The notes under the pieces were generated by a model. That model saw only the letters and a program-made list of their open reading frames with translations. It was not told the DNA's origin and ran no database searches. The translations under genes were made by a program, and so were the position numbers. From Phaeacidiphilus oryzae TH49 (GTDB lineage Bacteria > Actinomycetota > Actinomycetes > Streptomycetales > Streptomycetaceae), in the NCBI RefSeq assembly GCF_000744815.1, contig NZ_JQMQ01000005.1, positions 6,405,801 to 6,469,800 of the forward strand: a stretch of DNA of 64,000 nucleotides. The letters are read 5' to 3'. Shown here piece after piece: positions 16,477 to 24,538 of this stretch. Numbering within the stretch: the stretch's first letter is position 1; every line of letters begins with the position of its first letter.

Positions 16477-17694
<1,218 letters not shown>

Positions 17695-21604: not shown

Positions 21605-22552
21605 GTGAAGGACGTCCGCACGCTCCCCAAGGCCCATCTCCACACCCATCTCGAGAGCACCGTCCGTCCCGGCACGATCCGCGACCTCGGCGGCGAACCC
21701 GCCGTCCAGCAGCGGCCGTTCGGCAGCTTCCGGGAGTTCGGCGACGCCCGGGCCGAGGTCCGGGCACTGCTCCGCGAGCCCTCGCACTTCCGCCGGATCG
21801 CCGAGGAGTTCTGCGCGGACGAGGCCGCGCAGGGCGTCGGCCACGTCGAGGTCAGCTTCACCGCCGCCGCGCACGGCGAGCGCCTCGGCGATCCCGAGAT
21901 GCCGCTGGCCGCGGTGCTCGAAGGGCTGGCGGCCGGGGCGGAGCGGTACGGCATCAGTACCGCGGTGATCCTCGACCACTCCCGCCGCCGCCCGGTGGAA
22001 CGCCTCCGCAGCAGCCTCCGGCTCGCCCTCCGGCACCGGCCGCAGGTGGTCGCCATCGGGCTGGCCGGCGACGAGGCGTACCCGGCGGAGCCGTTCGCCG
22101 AGGTCTGCGCCGAGGCCCAGGAGGCCGGCGTCCACCTCGTCCACCACGCGGGGGAGGCGGCGGGCCCGGAAAGCGTCCGCGAGGTGCTGACCCTCGGCCG
22201 CGCCGAGCGGATCGGCCACGGCATCCGGGTTCTGGAGGACCCGGACCTGGTGGCCGAACTCGCCGCCCGGCGCGTCCCGTTGGAGGTCTGCCCGACCTCC
22301 AACCTGCTCCTCGGCCTGGTCCCCTCGCTGGCCGAGCACCCGCTCCCGCGCCTCCTCGCGGCCGGCCTGCTGGTCACCCTGAACACGGACGGCGAGACGG
22401 CCCTCGCGGACGAGTACCGGCGCGCCCGCGACCACCTCGGCCGCACCGACGCCGACCTGGCCGCCCTCGCCCGCGCCTCGGTAGCGGCCTCCTTCGCCCC
22501 CGCCGAGGTCAAGGCCGCCCTGCTGGCCGGGATCGACGACTGGGCGCGCTGA
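21605..22552 (+). CDS. Adenosine deaminase-family hydrolase
   Basis: 315 residues. The metal-binding HxH is LHTHLES near the N-terminus. The catalytic region has VHLVHHAGEAAG (His/Glu) and ERIGHGIRV, and the second metal Asp lies in LVTLNTDGET. In canonical adenosine deaminases the first motif is HLDG and the last NTDDP; here HLES and NTDGE differ, which is typical of divergent family members that deaminate adenine, aminofutalosine or modified adenosines. At 315 residues it is shorter than the usual 340-370 because the N-terminal substrate-lid region is reduced. GTG at 21605 is the only sensible start near the HxH motif. Confidence 0.85.
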   Translation: MKDVRTLPKAHLHTHLESTVRPGTIRDLGGEPAVQQRPFGSFREFGDARAEVRALLREPSHFRRIAEEFCADEAAQGVGHVEVSFTAAAHGERLGDPEMPLAAVLEGLAAGAERYGISTAVILDHSRRRPVERLRSSLRLALRHRPQVVAIGLAGDEAYPAEPFAEVCAEAQEAGVHLVHHAGEAAGPESVREVLTLGRAERIGHGIRVLEDPDLVAELAARRVPLEVCPTSNLLLGLVPSLAEHPLPRLLAAGLLVTLNTDGETALADEYRRARDHLGRTDADLAALARASVAASFAPAEVKAALLAGIDDWAR

Positions 22553-22654
22553 GACGCGGGTCACAGGGCGGCGTGTCACAGGGCGGTGGGCCGTCTCGTC
22601 TCAAGGGTGTCGGCAACGGCGACCCAGACCCGCATCCAGACCCAGGAGCACACC

Positions 22655-23128
22655 ATGGAAGCCCGTATCAACGTGATGGCCAGCCCGGTCGCGGCGAAGG
22701 CCCTGAAGCACCTGATCGCCGCGGGGCAGGTACTCGCCGAGTCCACCGTCCCCTCCGCGACGCTGGAACTGGTGAAGATCCGCGCCAGCCAGATCAACGG
22801 CTGCGCCGGCTGCATCGACATGCACACCAAGGAGGCCGCGGCGGCGGGGGAGACCGCGGTCCGCCTCAACCTGGTCGCCGCCTGGCGGGAGGCCACGGTC
22901 TACACCGAGGCCGAGCGCGCCGCGCTGGAGCTCGCCGAGGAGGGCACCCGCATCGCCGACGCGGCCGGCGGCGTCCCGGACGAGGTGTGGGCCAACGCCG
23001 CCAAGCACTTCGACGAGGACGAGCTGGCCGCCCTGGTACTGCAGATCGCCGTCATCAACGCCTTCAACCGGGGCAACGTCCTCACCCGCCAGCCGGCCGG
23101 CCACTACGAGGTCGGCATGGTGCACTAG
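22655..23128 (+). CDS. Carboxymuconolactone decarboxylase/AhpD-family protein
   Basis: 157 residues. The AhpD-type redox motif is INGCAGCIDMHTKEA (CxxC followed by Ile-Asp-Met-His), with the general-base Glu upstream (ELVKIRASQING). This pattern marks alkylhydroperoxidase-like proteins rather than true CMD enzymes. The likely role is peroxide or reactive-intermediate detoxification, with electrons from a thiol carrier. AGGAG precedes ATG 22655 at about 8 bases. It follows the adenosine deaminase by 102 bp and probably has its own promoter. Confidence 0.88.
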   Translation: MEARINVMASPVAAKALKHLIAAGQVLAESTVPSATLELVKIRASQINGCAGCIDMHTKEAAAAGETAVRLNLVAAWREATVYTEAERAALELAEEGTRIADAAGGVPDEVWANAAKHFDEDELAALVLQIAVINAFNRGNVLTRQPAGHYEVGMVH

Positions 23129-23258
23129 GGGGCGTTCCCTGGCCCCTGCCATCCGCCTTCCTTCCGCCTGTCGGGGGTCCGGACCCCACCGGCCGAGCAC
23201 CCGGGGCAGCGGCCGGGAAACCCTCCCGGTGCCGTTCCGATGACGGTATTCTGAGGCC

Positions 23259-23300
23259 ATGCCTCACATGTCAGGTCTGAACTGGTGGCGCTCCAGGTAG
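23259..23300 (+). CDS. Trp leader peptide (MPHMSGLNWWRSR)
   Basis: A 13-residue reading frame, ATG to TAG, with consecutive Trp codons 9 and 10. It ends 27 bases before the terminator hairpin and 134 bases before trpS. No Shine-Dalgarno sequence precedes it and a possible -10 box ends 6 bases upstream, so it may be translated from a leaderless mRNA. Confidence 0.85.
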   Translation: MPHMSGLNWWRSR

Positions 23301-23326
23301 GAGCGGCCACCACTCGGACATGACCA

Positions 23327-23354
23327 GAAGGGCCGTTCGGACGGACGGCCCTTC
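23327..23354 (+). terminator. Attenuator terminator hairpin before trpS
   Basis: A perfect 10-bp stem GAAGGGCCGT/ACGGCCCTTC around an 8-base loop is followed by a T-rich stretch (TTCGTGTTCC). It lies downstream of the Trp leader peptide and upstream of the trpS start, the position expected for an attenuator. Confidence 0.88.
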
Positions 23355-23434
23355 TTCGTGTTCCTGGACCCGGGGCGCGTCGTCCGGCGGCTCGCGACAT
23401 CACACCTACCGCGATTCCGGACCTGGGAGACGCC

Positions 23435-24538
23435 ATGACGCAGGCTGTCGAGACCGCCCCCGCCCCGACCCTCGAGGAGCGGGTGCTCCGCGACCCCGGA
23501 CGGTTCCGGGTGCTGACCGGGGACCGCCCCACCGGGCCGCTGCATCTGGGCCACTACTTCGGGACGCTGCGGAACCGGGTGCGGCTGCAGAACCTCGGTG
23601 TGGAGGTGTTCGTGCTGCTCGCCGACTACCAGGTGCTGACCGACCGGGACGTCGCCGAGAACCTCGGCCGGCACGTCGAGGAACAGGTGCTGGACTACCT
23701 CGCCGTCGGCATCGACCCGGCGCGCAGCACCGTCTTCGCGCACAGCGCCGTGCCCGCCCTCAACCAGCTGATGCTGCCCTTCCTCAGCCTGGTCTCGGTC
23801 GCCGAGCTGCACCGCAACCCGACCGTCAAGGACGAGATCGCCCACTCCCGGCAGTCCGCCGTCAGCGGGCTGATGCTGACCTATCCGGTGCACCAGGCCG
23901 CCGACATCCTCTCCTGCAAGGCGGGCCTGGTACCGGTCGGACAGGACCAGCTGCCGCACCTGGAGCTCACCCGCACCATCGCCCGCCGCTTCAACGAGCG
24001 GTACGGGGGCGGTGGCGGGGGCGCCGCCGGCGGTGCCGGTGTAGGTGGCGGTGTCGGTACCGGTGCCGGTGTCTTCCCGGTGCCGGAGGCCCTCCTCTCC
24101 AGCGCGCCACTGCTGCTCGGCACGGACGGCGGGAAGATGAGCAAGAGCCGCGGCAACGCGATCGCCCTCGGGGCGAGCCCGGACGAGACGGCCCGGCTGC
24201 TCCGAGGTGCCAGGACGGACGCCGACCGGCACATCACCTACGATCCGGCGAACCGCCCCGAGGTCTCCTCGCTGCTCCTGCTTGCCGCCCTCTGCTCCGG
24301 CCGGACCCCCGAGGAGATCGCCGCCGAGACCGGCGCCGCGGGCGCGGCCGCGCTGAAGCGGACGGTCACGGAGGCGGTCAACGAGTACCTGGCGCCGATC
24401 CGGGCCCGGCGGGCCGAGTACGCCGCGGACCGCGCCCACCTGCGCCGCGTACTGGCGGAGGGCAACGAGCGGGCGCGGGCGGTGGCCGAGACCACCCTCG
24501 CCGAGGTGCGCGCGGCCATGGGGAGCGACTACCGCTGA
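23435..24538 (+). CDS. trpS: Tryptophanyl-tRNA synthetase (auxiliary, attenuation-controlled type)
   Basis: 367 residues, class Ic aminoacyl-tRNA synthetase. The HIGH motif is PLHLGHYFG (H37-H40) and the KMSKS loop is GGKMSKSRGN (K234-S238). The Trp-binding region includes LADYQVLTD and PVGQDQLPHLELTR. A Gly-rich low-complexity insertion (about 191-213) sits between NERY and VFPVPEALL just before the catalytic C-terminal part; it is unusual for the family and codes from GGTGGCGGG-type repeats. The Trp-leader attenuator upstream matches the indolmycin-resistant auxiliary TrpRS1 of S. coelicolor, so a second housekeeping trpS is expected elsewhere in the genome. Confidence 0.93.
   Translation: MTQAVETAPAPTLEERVLRDPGRFRVLTGDRPTGPLHLGHYFGTLRNRVRLQNLGVEVFVLLADYQVLTDRDVAENLGRHVEEQVLDYLAVGIDPARSTVFAHSAVPALNQLMLPFLSLVSVAELHRNPTVKDEIAHSRQSAVSGLMLTYPVHQAADILSCKAGLVPVGQDQLPHLELTRTIARRFNERYGGGGGGAAGGAGVGGGVGTGAGVFPVPEALLSSAPLLLGTDGGKMSKSRGNAIALGASPDETARLLRGARTDADRHITYDPANRPEVSSLLLLAALCSGRTPEEIAAETGAAGAAALKRTVTEAVNEYLAPIRARRAEYAADRAHLRRVLAEGNERARAVAETTLAEVRAAMGSDYR

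Follow-up and report, generated by a model that had tools for sequence, protein, structure and literature searches.

A predicted trp-type attenuator with a probably leaderless leader ORF lies upstream of an auxiliary tryptophanyl-tRNA synthetase gene in Phaeacidiphilus oryzae

We analyzed a 64,000-nucleotide stretch of the Phaeacidiphilus oryzae TH49 genome (hereafter the window; contig NZ_JQMQ01000005.1, positions 6,405,801 to 6,469,800, with coordinates below counted from its first base) that carries trpS, a gene encoding a tryptophanyl-tRNA synthetase (TrpRS). The 5' neighbor of trpS lies on the same strand and encodes a carboxymuconolactone-decarboxylase-family protein; the 3' neighbor, on the opposite strand, encodes a short-chain dehydrogenase. 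A preliminary description of this DNA, made from the sequence alone, had reported a leader peptide with two adjacent Trp codons and a hairpin overlapping these codons ahead of trpS. Both are present between 23247 and 23434, as judged from the sequence and the minimum-energy fold, and a TATTCT hexamer does end 6 bases 5' of the leader ATG, as that description had stated. The features of the region are collected in Table 1.

Table 1. Features of the region upstream of trpS, with window coordinates.
Feature	Position	Strand	Basis and remarks
-10 box TATTCT	23247-23252	+	read from sequence; no recognisable -35
Gap GAGGCC between -10 box and leader ATG	23253-23258	+	6 nt
Leader peptide ORF MPHMSGLNWWRSR and stop TAG	23259-23300	+	ATG 23259-23261, 13 codons, TAG 23298-23300
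Predicted transcription start, A of leader ATG	23259	+	inferred from 6-nt gap; pyrimidine at -1, purine at +1
Tandem regulatory Trp codons UGG UGG (codons 9 and 10)	23283-23288	+	read from sequence
Helix 1:2	arms 23283-23294 / 23300-23312	+	G23305 bulged; minimum-energy fold
Antiterminator helix 2:3	arms 23301-23308 (GAGCGGCC) / 23331-23338 (GGCCGUUC)	+	8-base pairing
Terminator hairpin 3:4	arms 23326-23338 / 23343-23355	+	minimum-energy fold; weak U-tract behind
Shine-Dalgarno-like GGGAG of trpS	23425-23429	+	read from sequence
trpS, auxiliary TrpRS-II-like tryptophanyl-tRNA synthetase, 367 aa	23435-24538	+	ATG 23435, stop ends 24538

The genome has two TrpRS genes, the window trpS and L002, whose products are 36% identical. 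In a best-match ranking (not a tree), the PDB entries closest to the window enzyme were 1yi8 (235.6 bits) and 2a4m (232.2 bits), with the next match at 182.7 bits; both entries are D. radiodurans TrpRS II.

For comparison, we assembled 81 loci with a window-type trpS, comprising 80 relatives and the window itself. A short ORF with regulatory Trp codons (MPHMSGLNWWRSR in the window) precedes trpS in 73 of these loci, with six families represented. The 73 leader rows are mutually related and fall into 47 clusters at 85% identity. Tandem UGGUGG is found in 72 leaders, and the first Trp codon sits 8 codons past the start in all leaders except that of L062, where the distance is 7. The remaining leader, in L064 (L064:1241-1279), has a single Trp codon: its second UGG has become CGG, and a matching change on the opposite side keeps the hairpin pair. 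Two Microbispora leaders (L056:1276 and L073:1270) have GTG as start codon, likewise at the 6-nt spacing. No leader was found in eight loci (L014, L025, L031, L038, L042, L044, L046, and L071), of which L014 and L046 are the Micromonospora copies. The L031 contig extends only 234 nt upstream, and the other seven loci were checked over ~420 nt 5' of the match. These seven trpS relatives may be expressed constitutively or be under other control.

The position of the putative promoter relative to the leader is nearly invariant. A TANNNT hexamer ends 6 nt (56/73) or 7 nt (17/73) before the leader start codon, and none of the 73 leaders has one at gaps of 0-5 or 8-18. As background, TANNNT occurred at 6 of 9950 upstream positions at gaps 12-149, and among other ATGs in the same loci (n = 2132) only 16 have TANNNT at the leader distance, while 843 follow a pyrimidine. 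The choice of leader starts partly preferred those with a TANNNT hexamer, and rows with alternative in-frame starts were listed; this preference cannot create the spacing result, because in 72 of the 73 rows the distance from the chosen start to the first Trp codon is exactly 8 codons. The base at -1 of the leader start is a pyrimidine (C or T) in 73/73 leaders, compared to 38/73 for the base at -2. Transcription usually starts on a purine that follows a pyrimidine, so the first base of the start codon is the likely +1. For S. lividans, one transcription start site (TSS) study gives a mean distance of 6.3 nt from -10 box to TSS, with 97.1% of leaderless starts beginning with a purine (PMC8079986).

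Signals for conventional initiation are scarce at the leader. A Shine-Dalgarno match of at least 5 bases precedes 1/73 leaders versus 58/73 trpS starts, a comparison that favors the trpS side in that the best in-frame trpS start was taken per locus. The GAGG at 23253-23256, 2 nt before the window's leader ATG, is too close for a normal Shine-Dalgarno and is unconserved. No -35 element stands clearly above background, with matches of at least 4/6 in 12/73 leaders versus 129/1460 random places, and a sigma-70 promoter scan gave no match at the leader, as expected for a promoter lacking a recognisable -35. The earlier proposal that transcription begins at or next to the leader ATG, leaving no ribosome-binding site, agrees with the hexamer spacing, the -1 pyrimidine and the near absence of Shine-Dalgarno matches, and on these sequence features the window's leader is very probably leaderless. 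A GC-rich inverted repeat adjoins the -10 box in L003, L008, and L012 (arms, e.g., GCCCCGCGG and CCGCGGGGC in L012) and is a possible operator or upstream terminator.

Folding 111 nt of the transcript, starting one base inside the ATG, placed the Trp-codon hairpin and the terminator hairpin side by side, with an energy of -60 kcal/mol compared to a mean of -40.5 for shuffled sequences (z -5.1; 0/200 shuffles as good). A third helix, overlooked by the preliminary description, competes with these two and corresponds to an antiterminator (helix 2:3). This helix would complete a three-state switch with mutually exclusive pairings 1:2, 2:3, and 3:4, arm 1 of which overlaps the Trp codons.

Over the 73 aligned leaders, the two sides can pair in 89.0% of cells for helix 1:2, 98.8% for 2:3, and 86.2% for 3:4. 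The figure for 1:2 is lowered by 18 leaders in which GGCCGTCC follows the first Trp codons; these leaders have no bulge and, in our reading of the alignment, form the helix offset by one position. Both sides of helix 2:3 have changed in 24 cells, and its pair 45/88 is A-U in 48 rows and G-C in 23 (n = 73). Within helix 1:2, pair 28/52 has C-G in place of U-A in one row, L064. The covariation scores of 1:2, 2:3, and 3:4 each exceeded all 500 shuffles and every slid register, with shuffle controls that leave the kinship of the rows in place. The number of further pair types was not above chance, with 289, 500, and 59 of 500 shuffles reaching at least the observed value for 1:2, 2:3, and 3:4, respectively. 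Antiterminator energies differed in the expected direction between own and swapped combinations (own -17.3, swapped -16.5 and -16.0). Single rows (L017, L020, and L076) had a better energy swapped than own, and we therefore put weight on the pair counts rather than on the energies.

The terminator had been described as perfect, which is too strong in view of its U-tract. The conserved 3:4 stem has 13 pairs, one of them G-U; the U-tract behind it is poor (UCGUGUUCC), and a terminator scan requiring 5 T in 8 gave no match at this hairpin. At least 5 T are found in the 12 nt past the stem in 62/73 rows. The hairpin ends ~80 nt before the trpS start.

We considered whether the same attenuator could instead be driven by a more distal upstream promoter, with a ribosome-binding site of normal or low strength serving the leader and TATTCT being incidental. 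The GAGG directly before the leader ATG and the unrecognisable -35 would fit such an arrangement, as would GGAGGA runs ~20 nt upstream in some relatives (e.g., L033, L055, and L068), but these runs sit 5' of the -10 box. A promoter further upstream also leaves unexplained why TANNNT lies exactly 6 or 7 nt before all 73 leaders and almost nowhere else upstream, and it accounts poorly for a -1 pyrimidine in every leader and a Shine-Dalgarno match in just one. We consider this arrangement improbable. Somewhat less improbable, though still unlikely, is that Rho or the translation of trpS provides the control and that the 3:4 hairpin is merely a pause or roadblock rather than an intrinsic terminator. 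The weak U-tract, the negative terminator scan and the distance between hairpin and trpS are in keeping with this, and sequence alone cannot tell how transcription is stopped. Against it, the GC-rich 3:4 stem is retained across the alignment, T-rich stretches follow it in most rows, and arm 2 is complementary to exactly the 5' arm of the 3:4 stem in nearly every cell.

A T-box sensing tRNA, or another leader sensing a protein or ligand, can be given very little credence. In other bacteria, synthetase genes are found under T-box control (PMC1262725), but no Rfam family matched 22500-24500 at E values up to 1, and the start, frame and Trp codons conserved in 73 leaders are not needed by a T-box. 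We rejected a T-box identity on the basis of the Rfam result and the conserved leader ORF.

The aligned loci thus contain the sequence elements themselves, their conservation, mutually exclusive helices and a fixed promoter-to-start spacing, and we are confident, on sequence grounds, in reading them as a trp-type, ribosome-mediated transcription attenuator with a leaderless leader ORF ahead of trpS. The steps that follow, from the precise 5' end and 70S loading through stalling and termination to the Trp response, are our inference. RNA polymerase would start no more than one base away from the leader AUG (23259), and a ribosome, presumably a 70S, would load onto this 5'-terminal AUG and read the 13 codons. 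With charged Trp-tRNA available, the ribosome would reach the UAG ending at 23300 and cover arm 2, such that the terminator 3:4 can form and end transcription. A shortage of charged Trp-tRNA, caused either by Trp starvation or by inhibition of the housekeeping TrpRS, would make the ribosome stall at UGG UGG and mask arm 1, leaving arm 2 to pair with arm 3; no terminator would then form and the auxiliary trpS would be transcribed. In the absence of translation, 1:2 and 3:4 would form together, keeping trpS off.

To see how common this arrangement is, we scanned genomes for TANNNT-N6-ATG-N21-TGGTGG. The genome of the window (7.8 Mb) has a single match to this pattern and none to its reversed control; TGGTGGTGG has 700 sites in the whole genome and is too common to be informative. 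Three short tandem-Trp ORFs in the window passed a loose filter, and only the leader has TANNNT at the 6-nt spacing within the 20 bases viewed before each ORF. The other two, at 16538 (+) and 59773 (-), are without TANNNT at this spacing and are probably chance occurrences. The pattern matched 117 of 297 family genomes, a count that includes visible unrelated repeats and is to be read alongside a reversed control that also matches in several genomes. Among the 30 matches listed, 15 lie before trpS, 11 have a leader with WWW, and 4 are something else. The WWW leaders read MHAPHTHSWWW-, MFAPMNQNWWW- and similar, and those of L103, L109, L110, and L116 belong to the MHAPHTHSWWWASP- type and share the leaderless geometry. 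For two of the 11 WWW loci, L109 and L110, we scanned the next genes, which encode chorismate-binding enzymes with scores below the curated model cut-offs. Chorismate-binding enzymes include anthranilate, aminodeoxychorismate and isochorismate synthases. In the window's own genome, trpE (L083) is preceded by an ORF that by eye resembles hisI, and scanning L083 for TANNNT, 5-8 nt, a start codon and a short ORF revealed no leader before it; L084 is another chorismate-binding gene of this genome.

Leaders of a related kind have been mapped experimentally. In S. lividans TK24, native 5'-end RNA-seq led to TrpL1 (before trpE) and TrpL2 (before trpS) being called leaderless (PMC8079986). A pattern derived from TrpL2 matched in 8 of 394 family genomes. 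In seven of the eight, TANNNT is followed after 7 nt by GTG and then by the ATG at the start of the pattern; the eighth, L120, has ACG where the others have ATG and the same TANNNT, 7 nt and GTG before it. The preliminary description had suggested comparing the leader regions of trpRS1 orthologues, and those of the TrpL2 (presumed trpRS1) type do have the same kind of spacing. The sign of leaderlessness is therefore also present at the type of leader whose 5' end was measured.

The enzymes encoded behind TrpL2-type leaders, which we presume from gene numbering to be of the S. coelicolor trpRS1 type, are 33-36% identical to the window TrpRS and ~50% identical to L002 (low-complexity filter off). 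In a protein tree that took in five of the eight TrpL2-type loci and nine of the 80 relatives, they separate from the window clade with 100/100 support. On this basis we rejected orthology of the window gene to trpRS1. The earlier likening to trpRS1 thus stands for the mode of control, which is alike, and fails for orthology (about 34% identity, separate clade); by sequence, we assign the window gene to an auxiliary, TrpRS-II-like clade and not to the S. coelicolor trpRS1 type.

E. coli trpL shares its Trp-codon position and helix logic with the window: its tandem Trp codons come about nine codons into the ORF, and helices 1:2, 2:3, and 3:4 alternate in the same way. Unlike the window's leader, it is transcribed with a 5' UTR and translated from a ribosome-binding site. 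In both S. lividans trpL2-trpS and the window, a Trp leader precedes trpS, and trpL2 is reported as leaderless from TSS mapping; its leader, MMTRTCTQLWRAA, has one Trp codon, unlike the window's two. S. lividans trpL1, leaderless in the same account, likewise has its first Trp at codon 9, but differs from the window in having three Trp codons and in preceding an anthranilate synthase gene. Leaders resembling trpL1 and sharing its geometry were among the matches to TANNNT-N6-ATG-N21-TGGTGG in the family genomes. For S. avermitilis trpS2, a classical attenuator was predicted (Seliverstov et al., 2005; PMC1262725); there, as in the window, the attenuator precedes a second trpS, and leaderless transcription is not a subject of the passages that describe it. 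In mycobacteria, leaderless short ORFs rich in consecutive cysteine codons are reported to act as attenuators (Canestrari et al., 2020, as reviewed in PMC9031893; PMC4633059). A leaderless leader ORF serving as an attenuator is common to these and the window, whereas the mycobacterial leaders use cysteine codons, precede other genes and, in the accessible parts of these sources, have no described trp-type three-helix switch.

Leaderless attenuation is thus a published mechanism, in S. lividans and mycobacteria, and is not new here. Our literature search, which covered mostly papers available without subscription, found no report of it for the TrpRS-II-like clade. The attenuator before these TrpRS-II-like trpS genes adds a case with an unusually rigid and conserved geometry. 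We tentatively entertain a broader idea, which we regard as possible rather than likely: that actinobacterial Trp attenuators before auxiliary trpS and anthranilate-synthase-type genes share this layout (pyrimidine at -1, start codon at +1, Trp at codon 9) as a functional design. A single 70S would load at the emerging 5' end and stall so near to it that no second ribosome could follow, and the switch would thereby read one ribosome per transcript.

With the control mode already in print, the surprise is limited. That 73 related leaders keep such a fixed geometry suggests selection on the spacing, and the locus offers a compact natural system for the coupling of transcription and translation when a ribosome has no ribosome-binding site and must load onto a nascent 5' end. 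The locus also points to a way in which many actinobacteria may activate an auxiliary TrpRS, possibly one resistant to inhibitors, once the main TrpRS fails.
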